In this document: positions 1 through 6,021 of the stretch, in pieces
Position numbering within the stretch: position 1 is the first letter of the stretch
How the letters are laid out: every line of letters starts with the position of its first letter
DNA from: Candidatus Avelusimicrobium faecicola
Lineage (GTDB): Bacteria > Elusimicrobiota > Elusimicrobia > Elusimicrobiales > Elusimicrobiaceae
Assembly: GCA_900540405.1 (NCBI GenBank)
Contig: UQFW01000063.1
Location: forward strand, 1-6,021
Length of the DNA stretch: 6,021 nucleotides
Direction of reading: 5' to 3'
Translations under genes and position numbers: made by a program
The notes under the pieces: generated by a model
Databases searched by the model: none
Told to the model about the DNA's origin: nothing
The model's input: only the letters and a program-made list of their open reading frames with translations

Positions 1-1857
1 TTATTGCGCCTCCCCTTGCGGTACAGATACCTGGATTTGCTGTAAACGCTGTTGGGCGCGCTCCTGGATTTGCTTGGCTTCTTCCTCGTAAGATTTTTGG
101 TCTTTGGCATTTACCGAGGCTTGCGCCAATTCTTTAGCCATGCCGTCCAAAATAGCGCGGGCCTGTTTTTCATAGGATTTTTTGGCTTGCGCGGGCCATT
201 GGCGCATTTCGTCGCTGGTCATAATTTGGTTGATAACCGTTTCGTTCTGTTTTTTGACGGCCTGTTCCATTTGCTTGGCCTGTTTCTTTTTGGTTTCCGG
301 GTTGTTTTTGGCTTTTTCCAGCAGTTGCTGGACGGCCTTGTTGCGCTTTTCCACGGCGGCCTGGTTTTTTTCGTTCACCGTCAGGCGGCCTTCGTCGCTG
401 GAGAGGTTTTCCAGCACTTCGCGTTCGTATTCTTCGTCAATAGCGGCGAACTGTTGGGCCACGTCCGCGCCGTAGGCATCCGCCACGGATTTTTGGTCTT
501 TTTTACGTTGGGCGGCAAACTGGTCTTTGTATTTTTGTTTTACTTCTTCCGAAACCACCACCCGTTCGTCGCGCACTTTTCCGGCTTCCACGTCCTCTTT
601 TTGCTTGGCTAATTGTTCGTGCGCGGTTTGGTTGTTAATTTCGTTCAGCGTGCGCCCGGCGTTGGGGTCGGACGGGTTATTCTGAAAAACGGCTTCTTTT
701 ACTTTGTCGTCGCTTTCCTGTTTTAATTTTAAGTATTTTTCCTGATACTCCGCCGCCGGCAGGCCCTCTTTCATCAGGGCCATTTTTTTAGCGGTAAAAT
801 CGTCCAGTACCGCCCGGGCGGCCGCTTCCGTCTTGGGGTTGAATTTATCACGCAAGCGGGCTAAATAGGCTTCGTTTTCCTGGCGTTGGTCGGCCTCTAT
901 TTTATTGAAAGTTTCATCATGCGCCAGTTGCCCTAATTGCCGTTGGTATTTGCGGTTGATTTTGCGGATTTCGTTTCCTTTTTGCTGTTGGGTTAAATCC
1001 TTGCGGTTGGCGGTGGCGGCGGCTTCTTTGCGGAAATTATCCATAATTTTGCCCGCTTTGCGCCCCGCCGAGGCCCCAAAGTTGTTGGTCATTCCGTTTA
1101 CCACCGAGGCTTTTTGCGATTCAATTTGCGACAAGACAGACCCAAACGGCCCGCCCTGTTGGGCCACTGCTTCCGGCCCGCCGCCGCGGGTGTATTTTTC
1201 CACCATGGTTGCCCGTTTGGATTTAGGCGCCATGGCCCGGGCCACCGCGCGGTCTATGGCGCTGGAAATACCGGCCATTTGGCGGCGCAGGGCCTCTTGT
1301 TTGCGGCGGTCTTTTTTACTGCCCATATACGATAAAATGGCATCATTGGCGGCTTCGTAAGCGGTGGCGTTGGTTTCCCCGTTAAATACCGGGCGTTGGG
1401 TGCGGGATTCCGGGGCGTAGCTTGCCCCGCCTTTGCCTGCGGTGGAGGCCGAGTCCGACCCGCCCGCCAAATGCGCCTTTTGCGCCGAGGAGCCCGCCCG
1501 GCCGTTCCGGGCAGAGGGGCCCGGCAAACGCATGCCCGGTTCATAGCGCGGGGCATTTTTTAGGCTGCTGCGCCCGGAGGGATATTCCACCCGGGGCGTT
1601 GGGCGCAAAACCGGGGCGCTTTGTAAATCTGCCGCCGGGGCCGCGGTTGGCGTTTGCCGCGGGGCAAGCCCTAAAATTTCCTGTTCTTTTAATTCTTCCA
1701 GCGTGCTGGCTTGCGGGGGTTCCGGCGCGATAAGCCCCGGTTCCTGCGCCAAACGTGCTTGCGGTGCGGAGCCGGGCTGATTCAAAAACACAAAAGCAAG
1801 CGCCAACAAAATGACAATAAATAAACCGAAAGTAAATACGTTTTTTGTATCGCGCAT
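1..1857 (-). CDS. Membrane-anchored, linker plus helical-repeat envelope protein of unknown function (618 aa)
   Basis: I do not recognise the family. Seen from the ATG at 1855-1857: a short basic N-terminus (Arg2, Lys5), one hydrophobic segment at residues 9-25 (signal anchor, no lipobox or clear cleavage site), then a Pro/Ala/Gly/Ser-rich low-complexity linker to about residue 158. The rest is strongly helical and rich in Lys, Gln, Glu and Ala. Residues about 252-525 align module by module with the neighbouring lipoprotein, with an extra 35-40 residues near 396-432 and a partial fourth module at about 553-609. No cysteines were seen. Inferred topology is N-in, with a long extracytoplasmic stalk. 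A TTG two codons upstream (1861-1863) could extend the frame, but only two bases separate it from the G-run at 1866-1870, whereas the ATG has eight, so I chose the ATG. The gene starts 14 bases after the lipoprotein stop, so the two are very likely co-transcribed. The stop is TAA at 1-3. A TolA-like or other trans-envelope role is possible but unproven. Confidence 0.9.
   Translation of the reverse strand: MRDTKNVFTFGLFIVILLALAFVFLNQPGSAPQARLAQEPGLIAPEPPQASTLEELKEQEILGLAPRQTPTAAPAADLQSAPVLRPTPRVEYPSGRSSLKNAPRYEPGMRLPGPSARNGRAGSSAQKAHLAGGSDSASTAGKGGASYAPESRTQRPVFNGETNATAYEAANDAILSYMGSKKDRRKQEALRRQMAGISSAIDRAVARAMAPKSKRATMVEKYTRGGGPEAVAQQGGPFGSVLSQIESQKASVVNGMTNNFGASAGRKAGKIMDNFRKEAAATANRKDLTQQQKGNEIRKINRKYQRQLGQLAHDETFNKIEADQRQENEAYLARLRDKFNPKTEAAARAVLDDFTAKKMALMKEGLPAAEYQEKYLKLKQESDDKVKEAVFQNNPSDPNAGRTLNEINNQTAHEQLAKQKEDVEAGKVRDERVVVSEEVKQKYKDQFAAQRKKDQKSVADAYGADVAQQFAAIDEEYEREVLENLSSDEGRLTVNEKNQAAVEKRNKAVQQLLEKAKNNPETKKKQAKQMEQAVKKQNETVINQIMTSDEMRQWPAQAKKSYEKQARAILDGMAKELAQASVNAKDQKSYEEEAKQIQERAQQRLQQIQVSVPQGEAQ
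31..1104 (-). repeat. Protein-level helical modules in the membrane-anchored protein
   Basis: Residues about 252-609 of the 618-aa protein hold diverged helical modules. Module 1 is centred on Phe-Gly at 260-261, module 2 on Phe-Asn at 339-340, and module 3 on Tyr-Gly at 462-463. A partial module 4 follows at 553-609. Module 2 and module 4 share an ARA(V/I)LD core (residues 347-352 and 566-571) followed at the same distance by a Tyr-x-Glu. Modules 1-3 match modules 1-3 of the adjacent lipoprotein in the same order. The similarity is at protein level only; I saw no nucleotide repeat. Boundaries are by-eye estimates. Confidence 0.6.
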
Positions 1858-1865
1858 AAACAAAA

Positions 1866-1870
1866 CCCCC
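1866..1870 (-). promoter_or_regulatory. G-rich ribosome-binding site that decides the start of the 618-aa protein
   Basis: A GGGGG run lies in the 14-base gap after the lipoprotein stop. It is eight bases before the ATG at 1855-1857, a normal Shine-Dalgarno distance, and only two bases before the alternative in-frame TTG. It is not a perfect GGAGG, but its position supports the ATG and suggests translational coupling to the upstream lipoprotein gene. Confidence 0.5.
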
Positions 1871-1871
1871 G

Positions 1872-2918
1872 TTATTGGGCGGCCGCCGGACGGCGCCCCT
1901 TTTTCAAACGCGCATTAAAGTTATTTTGCATAGCCGCTAATTTTTGGCGGTAAATGGCATTTAAGCGGGCCAGTTCTTCCTTTTTATAACTTAAACGCGT
2001 GTTAGCCGCCCCCACGGCGGCGGCGTTTTTCAAAATTTGGTTAAAAAACGGGCGGATTTCCAGTACAGCCTCTTTGCCGTACAAATATTCAAACCGGGCT
2101 TCCACTTCCTGATACGCGGCTATCATTTCGGCGCGCATAGCTTGCAATTCTTCTTCGCTCATAGCGCCTTTCGGGTCCCCATATTTGGCCACCACTTGGC
2201 GCAGGGCCACGTCCGATTCTACCGATACCGCCCCCACCTGCTTTTCCAATTCTTCCACGTTTTGGGCGGCGGAAAGCGCGGTGAAATAATCTTCCAGTGC
2301 TTTATGCAGTACCGGGGCCGCCTTTTCGGCACAGGTGGCGCCGTATATCTTTTTGATTTCTTCCAGCATGGCCTTATTTTTGACGGTCATTTCCACGCGC
2401 GCTTTGGCTAATTGCTTTTTAGAGGGGGGAAACCACTCACGCAACGATTCTGTTTGCAAAAAAGCGTTTAATTTTTGCTGATAATGGCCGTCCAACTCTT
2501 TGAGTTTTTCCGCCAGTTGGGCGGGGGAATCGGACGTTTTGGCCGCTTGCGTGGCCGCCCGGTGATATTCCATAATCAGCGCACCGGCCCGCGCGGCGGC
2601 TTCTTCGCCATAGGCTTGGCGCACGCGGCGCTCCAAATTGGTTTTTACGGCTTGCATTTTGGCGGGCAAATCGGGTATTTCCTCGGGCGCAAGCGCCATA
2701 TTCAGCGTGGCGGTATCCACCGGGTTTTTAATGTCCAGCGGCTTGCGGCGCTCTTGGGCGCGCAAGTTGTTTTGTTTGGCCTTTTCCATATAGTGGGCCA
2801 CATTGGCCTGCCGGGTAGGGCGCACGGAAACGGCCTTTTCATCTGCGGGGGCTTTCCCGCCGCAGGCCATTAGAAAAAGAAGAAGAAAAACAGGGGAAAC
2901 AGGGATTAATTTTATCAT
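1872..2918 (-). CDS. Lipoprotein with three helical modules, unknown function (348 aa)
   Basis: I do not recognise the family. Seen: Lys3, a hydrophobic stretch at residues 4-18, and a lipobox Leu16-Met17-Ala18-Cys19, so Cys19 should be lipidated by Lgt and cleaved by LspA. Gly20 at position +2 is not an inner-membrane retention signal in the enterobacterial Lol rule, so outer-membrane location is the simplest inference. After a polar linker (about 20-90) come three helical modules with Tyr-Gly pairs at 103-104, 192-193 and 280-281, spaced 89 and 88 residues. The C-terminus is basic (Arg/Lys 337-343). The ATG at 2916-2918 puts the lipobox at the right distance. An in-frame TTG 36 bases upstream (2952-2954) would prepend 12 residues and overlaps a candidate -35 box, so I rejected it. 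The gene follows a terminator, has its own candidate promoter, and is paired with a paralogous membrane protein 14 bases downstream. Confidence 0.93.
   Translation of the reverse strand: MIKLIPVSPVFLLLFLMACGGKAPADEKAVSVRPTRQANVAHYMEKAKQNNLRAQERRKPLDIKNPVDTATLNMALAPEEIPDLPAKMQAVKTNLERRVRQAYGEEAAARAGALIMEYHRAATQAAKTSDSPAQLAEKLKELDGHYQQKLNAFLQTESLREWFPPSKKQLAKARVEMTVKNKAMLEEIKKIYGATCAEKAAPVLHKALEDYFTALSAAQNVEELEKQVGAVSVESDVALRQVVAKYGDPKGAMSEEELQAMRAEMIAAYQEVEARFEYLYGKEAVLEIRPFFNQILKNAAAVGAANTRLSYKKEELARLNAIYRQKLAAMQNNFNARLKKGRRPAAAQ
1899..2636 (-). repeat. Three ~88-residue helical modules in the lipoprotein
   Basis: Residues about 95-340 form three tandem modules. Each has a helix ending in a Tyr-Gly pair (103-104, 192-193, 280-281), an Ala-rich helix, a loop, and a further charged helix ending in a basic or Gln-rich segment. 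The regular 88-89-residue spacing of the Tyr-Gly pairs is the clearest sign. Sequence identity between the modules is low, so this is old internal duplication. The same module order is found in the neighbouring 618-aa protein. Confidence 0.6.
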
Positions 2919-2924
2919 ACTTTC

Positions 2925-2954
2925 ATTATGCAAAAATTGCGGCGTGTTTGCCAA
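2925..2954 (-). promoter_or_regulatory. Candidate sigma70-type promoter for the lipoprotein pair
   Basis: On the minus strand TTGGCA (2949-2954, one mismatch to TTGACA) is followed after 18 bases by CATAAT (2925-2930, one mismatch to TATAAT). Six bases separate the -10 from the ATG at 2918, so transcription would start at or next to the A of the start codon. No Shine-Dalgarno sequence lies between. It sits just after the aspS terminator, where a new promoter is expected. This is a prediction from motif match and position only. Confidence 0.5.
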
Positions 2955-2963
2955 CGCGCGCGT

Positions 2964-3004
2964 AAAGAAAAACCCCGGGGTGTTTTTTTACAAGGCCCCG
3001 GGGT
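2964..3004 (-). terminator. Intrinsic terminator after aspS
   Basis: Reading the minus strand just past the aspS stop, the arm ACCCCGGGG (2996-3004) pairs perfectly with CCCCGGGGT (2972-2980) across a 15-base loop. A T-rich tail follows (2964-2971, TTTTCTTT, after the last T of the stem). It begins about five bases after the aspS stop codon and should end the hisS-aspS transcript. The plus strand has no T-tract after the stem, so it does not look bidirectional. Confidence 0.85.
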
Positions 3005-3009
3005 GTAAA

Positions 3010-4752
3010 CTATTTGACGATAGACAACGCCAATTCTTTTAGCTGTGCTTCATCCACCACGTTGGGGGAATCGGTCAGCGGGCAAACCGCTTGCGCCGTT
3101 TTGGGGAACGCGATAACCTCGCGGATGGAATCTTCCCCGGCCAACAGGGCGGTAATGCGGTCTAACCCCAAGCCAATGCCGCCATGGGGAGGCGCGCCCG
3201 CTTCCAGCGCGTTTAAGAGCATACCGAAACGGCGTGCGGATTCTTCTTTGGAGTATTTCATCAAAGCCAAAATACGTTCCTGCACGTCACGGCGGCAGTT
3301 GCGCACGGAGCCGGAGGCTAATTCGTTGCCGTTCAGCACCAAGTCAAACTGATAGGAGCGCACGGAACCGGGGTCGGTTTCCAGCTTGTCCAAATCGTCC
3401 TCGTGGGCGGCGGTAAAGGGGTTGTGGGCGGCATCCCAGCGGCCTTCTTCCGGCAAGTATTCCAACAGCGGGAAGTCCGTAATCCACACGAAAGCCCATT
3501 TGCATTTGGGCGTTAAATTTTTTACCAATTCTTTGCGTAAAGCACCCATAAACGGGCAGACGGTGTCGTGCTTATCACTGCCGAGCAAGATTAAATCGCC
3601 CTCGGCGGCGCCGCTGGCTTCTTTTAAGGACTCCAATTCCTGCGCGGTAAAGAATTTGGCGGTCGGGCTTTCCAACTTGCCGTCTTTTACTTTGAGCCAC
3701 ACCAGGCCCTTGGCCCCGTTCTTTTTGGCCAGTTCGGTCAGCTTATCAATATGCCCGCGGGAGAGCGAGGCTCCGCCGGCAGCCACCAGGGAGCGCACTT
3801 CGCCGCCGTGGGCAAGCACATCCGCAAATACCTTGAAAGTGGTGTTTTTGAAAACGCCGGACACATTTTTCATTTGCAAATCATAGCGCAAGTCCGGCTT
3901 GTCGGAGCCGTATTTATCCATGGATTCGTTATACGGCAGTTTGGCAAACGGAATGGTTAATTCTTCGCCCGCGGTGGTGAACAATTCTTTCATCAAGCCT
4001 TCTACAATGGTGTGGATGTCTTCAATCGTCACGAAAGACATTTCCATATCAATTTGTGTATGTTCGGGCTGGCGGTCGGCGCGGAGGTCTTCGTCGCGGA
4101 AGCACCGGGCCAACTGGAAGTAGCGGTCAATGCCGCTGGCCATTAAGGTTTGTTTGAACATTTGGGGGCTTTGCGGCAGGGCGTAAAATTCCCCATGGTG
4201 TACGCGGGACGGCACCAAATAATCGCGTGCGCCCTCGGGCGTGGAGCGGGTTAAAATAGGAGTTTCCACTTCCAGAAAACCGTTTTTATCCAAATACCGG
4301 CGCGCGGCCTGGGCCAAGCGGTGGCGCAAATACAGGTTGGCAAACATTTTGGGGTTGCGCAAATCCAAATAGCGGTATTTCAAGCGGATTTCTTCCGCCA
4401 CGGAGCGGGAGTTTTCCACATCAAACGGCAGTTGGATAGAGGTGTTTAAGAGAACCAAATTATCCGTTAAAAGTTCCACTTCGCCGGTTTTTAAGTTTTT
4501 ATTTACGGCGCCTTCAATGCGCGGTTTTACCGTGCCGGAAACCTGCACCACATATTCGTTGCGCAAGGTGCTGGCCAGGGCAAAAAACGGGCTGGACGGT
4601 TCCACCACCACTTGCATAAGGCCGGTGCGGTCCCGCAAGTCAATAAATAACACGCCGCCGTGGTTGCGGTAGCTGTTTACCCAACCGCATATAGTTTGGT
4701 GCGTGCCGATGTGCGAGGCGTTCAAATCCCCGCAGTAGTTCGTTCTCTTCAT
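3010..4752 (-). CDS. aspS: Aspartyl-tRNA synthetase, bacterial type, possibly non-discriminating
   Basis: Class II synthetase that attaches Asp to tRNA in the cytoplasm. At 580 residues it has the usual bacterial length and domain order. An OB-fold anticodon-binding domain comes first (about 1-110; CGWV at 22-25, DLRDR at 38-42), then the catalytic core with the Asp-pocket stretch QSPQMFKQ (194-201) and motif 2 (FRDEDLRADRQPEH, 218-231). The bacterial GAD insertion spans about 285-415, and motif 3 is GLGLDR (527-532). His31 and Gly81 match positions linked in Pseudomonas aeruginosa AspRS (His31, Gly82) to relaxed tRNA-Asp/tRNA-Asn choice, so it may also make Asp-tRNA-Asn for a GatCAB amidotransferase. 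The stretch SGSVRNC (480-486) has Asn-Cys where many AspRS have Ile-His. The ATG overlaps the hisS stop by four bases (ATGA), and a weak GAGGT lies 12 bases upstream inside hisS. The stop is TAG. Confidence 0.98.
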   Translation of the reverse strand: MKRTNYCGDLNASHIGTHQTICGWVNSYRNHGGVLFIDLRDRTGLMQVVVEPSSPFFALASTLRNEYVVQVSGTVKPRIEGAVNKNLKTGEVELLTDNLVLLNTSIQLPFDVENSRSVAEEIRLKYRYLDLRNPKMFANLYLRHRLAQAARRYLDKNGFLEVETPILTRSTPEGARDYLVPSRVHHGEFYALPQSPQMFKQTLMASGIDRYFQLARCFRDEDLRADRQPEHTQIDMEMSFVTIEDIHTIVEGLMKELFTTAGEELTIPFAKLPYNESMDKYGSDKPDLRYDLQMKNVSGVFKNTTFKVFADVLAHGGEVRSLVAAGGASLSRGHIDKLTELAKKNGAKGLVWLKVKDGKLESPTAKFFTAQELESLKEASGAAEGDLILLGSDKHDTVCPFMGALRKELVKNLTPKCKWAFVWITDFPLLEYLPEEGRWDAAHNPFTAAHEDDLDKLETDPGSVRSYQFDLVLNGNELASGSVRNCRRDVQERILALMKYSKEESARRFGMLLNALEAGAPPHGGIGLGLDRITALLAGEDSIREVIAFPKTAQAVCPLTDSPNVVDEAQLKELALSIVK

Positions 4753-5978
4753 AATGCTTTTTTTACCTCATCAGTTAAAACGTCAAATGAAATTTTTTGT
4801 TGCTCCCCGGTGGAGAGATTTTTGAAAGTGGCTTGTTTTTGGGCCAGTTCGTCCGTACCCAAAATAATGGCATAAGCGGCGTGGCAACGGTCGGATTGCT
4901 TCATTTGCCCTTTTACATTTTTATCAAACAGGCCGCCTTCGGTGCGGATGCCCGCCGCGCGCAAAGATTGCATAATGTTGAATGCGGTTTCGTTGCAGGA
5001 TTTATCCATGGAAACCACATACACGCTTTTGACGGGCGCTACCGGGGTTTCCCCGCGGGCGGCAATTACGCGCTCCGCCCCCATGGCCCAACCGATAGCC
5101 GGGGTGGCCGGGCCGCCCATATTTTTAACCAGCGTATCATAACGCCCGCCCGCCGCAATGGCGTTTTGGGAAACATCCCCGGCTTGAAATTCAAACACGG
5201 TGCGGGAATAATAGTCCAGCCCGCGCACGAGCATAGGGTCTACCACAAAATCTATCTTGCCTTTAAGTAGTGCCTGTACTTCGTCAAAGTGGGATTGGCA
5301 CTCCGGGCACAGCTGCATGGTGGGCACGCGGCCTGCAAAGCGGGCGCCGTCTATTTTGCAATCCAACACGCGCAAGGGGTTTTTTTCCAAGCGGGTTTGG
5401 CAGTTTTCGCACAGGGTGTCTTTTTCTTTAGATAAAAAGTCAATCAAGGCTTGGCGGTAGAGCGGGCGGCATTTATCGCACCCTAAACTGTTGATTTTAA
5501 CGCAGTAATTTTTAGCGCCGAATTTGGAAACAATATCCTTGAGCATTAAAATTACTTCGGCATCTGCCGCGGGGGCCGAGTTGCCGATATATTCCGCGCC
5601 GATTTGTTCAAATTCGCGGTAGCGGCCGGCTTGCGGGCGTTCCGCGCGGAACATATTGCCCACATAATAAAATTTTTGCACCGGCGCATTTTGGGTGAAG
5701 TTATTTTCCAAATACGCACGCACCACGCCGGGGGTTCCCTCCGGGCGGATGGCCAGTTGGCGGTGGCCGGCATCTTCAAAGGCGTACATTTCTTTTTGCA
5801 CAATATCCGTCGTTTCGCCGGTGGATTTGACAAACAATTCTTTCAATTCCACGGTGGGCAGGCGCAGTTCGCCAAACCCATAAAGGGAAAACACGCCGCG
5901 GGCGCAGTTTTCAAGTTCAGTAAAATTTTTAGATTGGGGTTCAAATATATCGCGGAAGCCCCGTACAAGTTTAGCCAT
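4749..5978 (-). CDS. hisS: Histidyl-tRNA synthetase
   Basis: Class IIa synthetase that charges tRNA-His in the cytoplasm. The 409 residues are near the usual bacterial length. Seen: RGFRD near the N-terminus (6-10), RPEGTPGVVRAY (78-89), motif 2 with FRAERPQAGRYREFEQIG (110-127), the HisA signature LVRGLDYYSRTVFEF (250-264), motif 3 around GWAMGAER (296-303), and a C-terminal HGTP anticodon-binding domain (about 317-409; LGTDELA at 373-379). The insertion domain carries Cys pairs at 167/170, 190/193 and 224/227 plus Cys207. This arrangement is found in many bacterial HisRS and may bind a metal, but that is inference. The start ATG at 5976-5978 gives the canonical N-terminus. It has no Shine-Dalgarno sequence but a -10-like box six bases upstream. 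The gene is first in an operon with aspS, as in Bacillus and many other bacteria. The stop is TGA, overlapping the aspS start. Confidence 0.98.
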   Translation of the reverse strand: MAKLVRGFRDIFEPQSKNFTELENCARGVFSLYGFGELRLPTVELKELFVKSTGETTDIVQKEMYAFEDAGHRQLAIRPEGTPGVVRAYLENNFTQNAPVQKFYYVGNMFRAERPQAGRYREFEQIGAEYIGNSAPAADAEVILMLKDIVSKFGAKNYCVKINSLGCDKCRPLYRQALIDFLSKEKDTLCENCQTRLEKNPLRVLDCKIDGARFAGRVPTMQLCPECQSHFDEVQALLKGKIDFVVDPMLVRGLDYYSRTVFEFQAGDVSQNAIAAGGRYDTLVKNMGGPATPAIGWAMGAERVIAARGETPVAPVKSVYVVSMDKSCNETAFNIMQSLRAAGIRTEGGLFDKNVKGQMKQSDRCHAAYAIILGTDELAQKQATFKNLSTGEQQKISFDVLTDEVKKAL

Positions 5979-5984
5979 ATATTA

Positions 5985-5993
5985 ATTTTAGCA
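5985..5993 (-). promoter_or_regulatory. Candidate extended -10 promoter of hisS-aspS
   Basis: On the minus strand TGCTAAAAT (5985-5993) matches an extended -10 (TGn plus TAAAAT, one mismatch to TATAAT). The hexamer ends six bases before the hisS ATG, so the transcript would begin at about the start codon. No good -35 is visible at 16-18 bases, which an extended -10 can tolerate. The sequence is A+T-rich by chance expectation too, so confidence is modest. Confidence 0.4.
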
Positions 5994-6000
5994 TTTTAGC
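5985..6000 (-). repeat. Tandem 8-bp repeat GCTAAAAT x2 upstream of hisS
   Basis: Two perfect, adjacent copies of GCTAAAAT (minus strand; 5993-6000 and 5985-5992) sit immediately before the hisS start. Each contains a TAAAAT hexamer, and the proximal one is the candidate -10. It may be a small regulatory site, a duplicated -10 or chance. The remaining bases 6001-6021 show nothing I can assign. Confidence 0.45.
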
Positions 6001-6021
6001 GGGGAATAAGAATAGCCGCAC

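Follow-up and report, generated by a model that had tools for sequence, protein, structure and literature searches.

The window analysed here, a 6,021-nucleotide stretch of Candidatus Avelusimicrobium faecicola (contig UQFW01000063.1, positions 1 to 6,021), carries four minus-strand genes: hisS, aspS, a gene for a predicted lipoprotein and a gene for a protein with a predicted transmembrane (TM) helix, called here the TM protein. The last two encode homologous proteins, which we regard as practically certain, and both are tandem arrays of one ~80-residue module, present in 3 copies in the lipoprotein and 4 in the TM protein. Our overall reading is more tentative: the two would be tandem paralogues of one repeated module with different predicted anchors, and may form a periplasmic scaffold linking the inner and outer membranes. 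Export, both anchors and the three helices per module are predicted. The two genes are:

1872..2918, minus strand: lipoprotein gene, 348 amino acids, three modules (open reading frame with homologues P0001-P0011)
1..1857, minus strand: membrane-anchored paralogue (TM protein), 618 amino acids from its ATG (open reading frame with homologues P0012-P0024)

Residue numbers of the TM protein in the original prediction count from this ATG (618 amino acids), and those elsewhere in this text from a TTG two codons upstream, at 1863 (620 amino acids). The ATG start agrees with 11 of 13 homologues, which begin at or beside its aligned position.

Pairwise BLASTP of the two plain sequences was too weak to establish a relationship (best E 0.22), and profiles were compared by hhalign. 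With small sets of close relatives (12 and 14), the two proteins were aligned at probabilities of 69.5% and 71.1%, the latter with a score of 45.6, residues 81-240 of the lipoprotein matching 240-389 of the TM protein. The corresponding controls were 19.7 and 20.1 for reversed profiles, 28.3 for the best of 60 column shuffles and 35.5 for the best of 60 shuffles of 14-column blocks. With clade-wide sets (38 lipoproteins, 61 TM proteins) the match rose to 99.3%, E 3.8e-20 and a score of 158.8, and became collinear over residues 33-332 of the lipoprotein and 214-520 of the TM protein; reversed profiles then scored 20.0 and 19.3, and the best of 50 column shuffles 20.8. Shuffling in seven-column blocks (n=50), which retains pieces of true homology, gave at best 43.2. 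The tandem paralogy claimed by the original prediction is thereby confirmed, far above reversed and shuffled controls, and the three matches it gave as examples (253-281 against 435-463; 183-192 against 330-339, running on to a shared Glu-Ser-Asp; AYGEEAAARAG against NFGASAGRKAG) all lie inside the computed alignment.

Searches of individual sequences agreed with the profile comparison. By hmmsearch, the lipoprotein profile recovered 60 of the 61 TM proteins at E<1e-3 (51 at <1e-6), and the TM profile all 38 lipoproteins (27 at <1e-6). No reversed TM protein matched the lipoprotein profile at E<=10; the TM profile matched 8 of the 38 reversed lipoproteins, with a best E of 0.039. Among the other open reading frames of the loci, TM relatives excluded, the lowest E values were 0.5 (lipoprotein profile) and 0.0087 (TM profile). 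A frame beside the shortened TM protein of L084 gave E 0.0042 and 0.00045, and may be the remainder of that protein.

That the resemblance is one of coiled-coil composition only has next to no probability left. The blank BLASTP, the richness of both proteins in helix, the seven-column block shuffles and the matching reversed lipoproteins are what one would expect from it, but the reversed and column-shuffled controls near 20, against 158.8 for the real profiles, show a significant match beyond composition; reversed TM proteins are unmatched, and the two proteins also have in common a NIEKY-like box that sits outside the modules. The clade-wide profile controls refute this explanation.

The common part had been described as a single helical module. 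The homology holds, but the unit is a repeat of ~80 residues present three or four times. Self-alignment of the lipoprotein reached 94.2% with the small set and 95.5% with the wide set, at a shift of ~88 residues, and that of the TM protein 0.3% and 98.3%, respectively. In the AlphaFold models, the modules are predicted to have three helices: the first two are separated by a break at, or close to, a conserved Tyr-Gly, and the third runs back. The parts of the lipoprotein are as follows:

2862..2873, minus strand: predicted lipobox LMAC, residues 16-19, read from the sequence
2775..2822, minus strand: NIEKY-like box, RPTRQANVAHYMEKAK, residues 33-48, aligned with the box of the TM protein
2433..2669, minus strand: module 1 (profiles; model helices 86-103, 105-128, 132-159)
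2169..2426, minus strand: module 2 (profiles; model helices 167-192, 194-217, 221-246)
1890..2162, minus strand: module 3 (profiles; model helices 255-280, 282-304, 309-341)

and those of the TM protein:

1780..1845, minus strand: predicted N-terminal transmembrane helix (sequence; model helix 7-28, low confidence)
1372..1767, minus strand: Pro/Gly/Ala/Ser-rich linker of ~130 residues, predicted to be disordered (pLDDT, the predicted local distance difference test, and conservation)
1177..1224, minus strand: NIEKY-like box, KSKRATMVEKYTRGGG, by alignment with the lipoprotein box
898..1146, minus strand: module 1 (model and profiles)
670..906, minus strand: module 2 (model and profiles)
295..555, minus strand: module 3 (model and profiles)
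28..294, minus strand: module 4, the most diverged (profiles)

The change of anchor that had been proposed is borne out at the level of prediction, a lipid for one protein and a TM helix for the other. Cys19 of the lipoprotein is invariant across 19 aligned sequences, and a loose lipobox pattern occurs within the first 70 residues of 32 of the 38 family members. In one relative (L001:5426-6451) the lipoprotein frame is interrupted by one TAA, the mark of either a pseudogene or an assembly error. On the side of the TM protein, pLDDT is < 50 across residues 1-184 of the model. The linker holds a conserved GGSASAS-AGKGGAS stretch and varies little in length across the clade, with a median of 139 where the lipoprotein is present and 131.5 where it is not.

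The NIEKY-like box lies upstream of the modules in both proteins; at L057, for instance, it reads KSKREQNIEKYLARAR in the TM protein and KFQRQANIEKYVQKAR in the neighbouring lipoprotein. A loose pattern for the box was found in 61 of 61 TM proteins, 36 of 40 lipoproteins and 0 of 456 other open reading frames of the same loci. The strict form N[IVL]EKY is more frequent in TM proteins (45/61) than in lipoproteins (6/40), and is again absent elsewhere (0/461).

The three lipoprotein modules match TM modules 1-3 in order, module 3 being ambiguous between TM modules 1 and 3. Lipoprotein module 1 gave hhalign values of 58-63 against TM module 1 and of 34-40 against modules 2 and 3 of its own protein, while the nearest match of its module 2 is TM module 2 (50), followed by TM module 3 (44-46). 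Since module 1 is nearer to its TM counterpart than to its own neighbours, the module was probably multiplied before the gene was duplicated, from an ancestor that already had several modules.

At E <= 0.001, 66 of 340 genomes matched a profile of the module. Among the matches listed was a second pair, beside tatD, again made up of a lipoprotein and a TM-anchored protein, with a single module at the end of each; six loci of this pair were scanned with Pfam, which confirmed tatD in all of them (L165, L166, L167, L180, L183, L051). Profiles of its two members matched each other at 96.8-97.7% (reversed 20, best of 40 shuffles 18.7). Across 65 genomes, 43 matched the lipoprotein-type and 44 the TM-type profile of this second pair at E <= 0.001. 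A true TM-type protein (E <= 1.5e-29) accounts for 22 of the latter, and lipoprotein-type or other module proteins for the rest. In 18 of these 22 genomes the lipoprotein type adjoins the TM type, with contig and strand in common (in G063 at the end of the contig), and in 4 it lies on another contig.

The tatD pair and the aspS pair are alike in joining a lipoprotein to a TM protein with the same helical module. They differ in that the members of the tatD pair have a single, C-terminal module each, carry a FLQIT-ED-like motif (11 of 16 proteins, versus 2 of 101 at the aspS locus) and have no NIEKY-like box (0 of 16). Because such locus-specific features are common to the members of each pair, they suggest that tandem duplication took place twice, separately, each time with this change of anchor; gene conversion may instead have produced the likeness within pairs. 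The module links at least three architectures: the three-module lipoprotein, the four-module TM protein and the one-module pair.

Other relatives of the module were found outside the pairs. Single-module lipoproteins lie near tatD and murD in L043-L046, with gene labels confirmed for L043. Four proteins combine a thioredoxin-like CPWC domain with one C-terminal module (L168:4513-5541, L170:4164-5045, L174:3129-3911, L178:4009-4770); below the Pfam cut-off, three of them resemble Thioredoxin_2 (best 2.2e-5) and one Glutaredoxin (0.0038). In L182:1-4539, an open reading frame of 1512 amino acids with a DnaJ domain has three weak module matches near its C-terminus. Two small tandem lipoprotein-like genes stand beside metK in the outgroup loci L169:4480-5270 and L171:2602-3420, with a weak module match in both genes of L169 and only in the second of L171. 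A match in a 926-amino-acid frame of L047, which looked like a CRISPR-type protein, was judged to be due to chance.

The distribution of the aspS-locus pair was then followed across genomes. A scan of genome contigs with the single TM protein confirmed no relative, whereas an alignment-based lipoprotein scan of species genomes yielded five loci, 4 from Elusimicrobiales and 1 from an uncultured bacterium. A protein database search gave 12 matches, 11 of them already found; the new one, the only one with a name, is annotated as a hypothetical protein from an Elusimicrobiaceae bacterium. At E <= 0.1 the lipoprotein profile matched 54 of the 340 genomes, 39 of which have a lipoprotein-type match at E <= 1.9e-39, and in 23 genomes it directly hit a frame of 461-654 amino acids, the TM protein (E 1.8e-9 to 3.9e-5). 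The TM profile had matches in 60 of the 340 genomes, of which a single one was weak (E 0.05).

Gene order was compared at 64 loci, i.e. 63 genomes and the window, after exclusion of four duplicates and L048. The order hisS-aspS-(lipoprotein)-TM protein occurs in one Elusimicrobiota clade, and the complete pair, a search for which in related genomes had been suggested, is present at 40 of the 64 loci. Each of the 40 lipoprotein genes is followed immediately, and on its own strand, by a TM-type gene, with a gap of -47 to 71 bases; 37 of these TM genes were recognised by the first profile and 3 only by a wider one (E 2.9e-57, 2.3e-49 and 1.5e-7, the last for a shortened protein of 377 amino acids). 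At L003:13099-15273, downstream of the pair, a convergent gene encodes TPR repeats together with a SpoIID domain.

A HisS+AspS tree of 56 taxa (51 from the clade, 5 from the outgroup), several branches of which have support under 75, placed the 32 lipoprotein-bearing genomes over the whole clade. In the stretch around hisS-aspS of the five outgroup loci, neither wide profile found anything below E 0.09, and L163, a clade member without either typical gene, has there a 280-amino-acid protein related to the TM protein (E 6e-10). Most simply, both genes would be ancestral to the clade, with the TM protein as the constant partner. The original prediction had one gene arise from the other by duplication. 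The paralogy stands, but the order of origin of the two genes cannot be told, as both were most simply present in the clade ancestor.

An association between loss of the lipoprotein and shortening of TM module 4 was considered and dropped. Among 63 loci with a TM protein > 450 amino acids (L084 being too short), the module 4 region is reduced to 24-30 residues in 11 of the 24 lipoprotein-less loci (L086, L088, L090, L116, L119, L120, L121, L122, L123, L125 and L129) and 0 of the 39 lipoprotein-bearing ones. The tree includes 8 of these 11, all grouped in a single clade, which amounts to about one event and to no correlation.

How the pair could work is suggested by its anchors and modules. The TM protein would sit in the inner membrane, and its disordered ~130-residue linker would carry the module array through the periplasm; the stable length of the linker fits a spacer role. 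There the modules would pack against homologous ones, supplied by a second TM protein or by the lipoprotein. The TM protein would then be the core and the lipoprotein an optional docking partner at the outer membrane. That the second pair shows this anchor split again points to a function at both membranes. We consider this tether mechanism possible, though on balance it is not the outcome we would expect. A bolder and rather doubtful version is that a so far undescribed helical repeat domain of Elusimicrobiota was twice, and independently, split through tandem duplication into an outer-membrane lipoprotein and an inner-membrane partner, giving homotypic 'zippers' that clamp the two membranes.

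Several observations weigh against the scaffold. The lipoprotein is missing at 24 of the 64 loci with a TM protein, 20 of these 24 having aspS -20 to 357 bases upstream, on the same strand, and on the assumption of one gain the tree implies eight lipoprotein losses. A mirror-tree signal of coevolution (30 pairs; partial r 0.36, permutation p 0.0005) was dropped as evidence, being no higher than in synthetase controls (partials 0.25, 0.38, 0.54). The AlphaFold models of the single proteins show the helical modules, but only with moderate confidence (mean pLDDT 73.9 and predicted template modelling score, pTM, 0.46 for the lipoprotein; 65.6 and 0.45 for the TM protein). Finally, contact between the two proteins is something we infer, and the outer-membrane placement of the lipoprotein something we assume. 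The idea that the two act together, perhaps as a hetero-oligomer, therefore survives in part: the constant adjacency and the second pair favour joint action, but the TM protein is retained where the lipoprotein is absent, which makes an obligate hetero-oligomer unlikely.

Three other functions were weighed, with probabilities that overlap, not all of them being mutually exclusive. The paralogues might work separately, their adjacency being a relic of duplication. The dispensability of the lipoprotein and the unremarkable coevolution signal fit such a separation, which we nevertheless find somewhat unlikely given that the order is kept at every lipoprotein locus over the whole clade and that the second pair has the same anchor split. 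The main rival, on account of the thioredoxin fusions, is a periplasmic chaperone or quality-control pair modelled on chaperones such as Skp and Spy, whose modules would cradle unfolded exported proteins with one copy close to either membrane. Charge-rich helical modules would suit a holdase, but the fusions come from the tatD-type family and from other loci, and no known chaperone family rises above the Pfam cut-off for the aspS-locus pair; we rate this rival as unlikely. Less probable still are regulators of peptidoglycan or envelope biogenesis, the lipoprotein docking on or activating wall enzymes from outside and the TM protein from inside. One gene separates the module/thioredoxin fusion of L174 from an LpoB homologue, and the SpoIID and TPR gene of L003 was found at the sole locus where it was scanned for. 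The LpoB link, however, is confined to one locus, and the SpoIID gene, being on the other strand, is outside the operon.

Upstream of the pair, the window contains:

4749-5978, minus strand: hisS, identified by Pfam
3010-4752, minus strand: aspS, identified by Pfam
2972..3004, minus strand: GC-rich hairpin followed by U5 after aspS, terminator-like (-20.2 kcal/mol, z -2.3)

Only 5 of 200 shuffles folded as well as the hairpin, but it is absent from the output of a consensus terminator scan. With its U-run it would be a likely terminator, which suggests that the lipoprotein and TM genes are transcribed on their own, as a separate unit.

No named family was found for either protein, as had been expected. 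For the two window proteins, nothing reached the cut-off in Pfam (best 13.2 bits vs 27) or in NCBIfam (best 14.2 vs 90), and for the scanned homologues of the aspS-locus pair the best Pfam score was 20.0 vs 27. In the PDB no match reached E 0.001 by sequence or Foldseek, the structure libraries used being without predicted cellular proteins, and the fold may yet be a known one. Foldseek with both models and VIA-align with the lipoprotein model returned generic helical matches only, e.g. serum albumin, dynein and designed repeats. One DUF1311 chain (DUF1311/LprI) gave a weak match, E 0.039 over 27 profile positions, and the family is not listed by Pfam; nor did Pfam list at E <= 1, for the window proteins, an LTXXQ-type profile of the Spy/CpxP family. 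Among the paper titles listed for Elusimicrobiota lipoproteins and for the genome and outer membrane of Elusimicrobium minutum, none concerns these proteins. The module appears to define a family of exported domains specific to the clade and missed by the catalogues scanned.

Three known systems offer comparisons. LolA, which is soluble, and LolB are half beta-barrels and form a paralogous exported pair, one member being an outer-membrane lipoprotein. The pair described here is alike in these relationships, and differs in its all-helical models and in a partner with a predicted TM helix; the lipoprotein model is helix with isolated bridge residues only, unlike the half beta-barrel of LolB. The LptC/LptA/LptD bridge is a beta-jellyroll lipid channel whose inner-membrane-anchored modules reach the outer membrane. 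Homologous modules, an inner-membrane anchor and a reach to the outer membrane, a placement assumed here, are common to both systems, and the present modules are instead helical repeats with no known cargo. TolA-Pal likewise sets an inner-membrane protein with a long periplasmic part against an outer-membrane lipoprotein. The TM protein has, by sequence and model, a predicted N-terminal TM helix and long periplasmic part like those of TolA, and neither a TolA C-terminal domain nor an OmpA-like domain is listed by Pfam at E <= 1 for the window proteins. TolA and Pal are not homologous, whereas the partners here are. If our reading is true, paralogues that differ in their anchors, and that seem to have arisen twice, would represent a simple way for a trans-envelope connection to evolve. 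A paralogous exported pair is known in principle from LolA/LolB; what seems new here is a module missed by the catalogues, together with a swap of anchors that seemingly took place twice.

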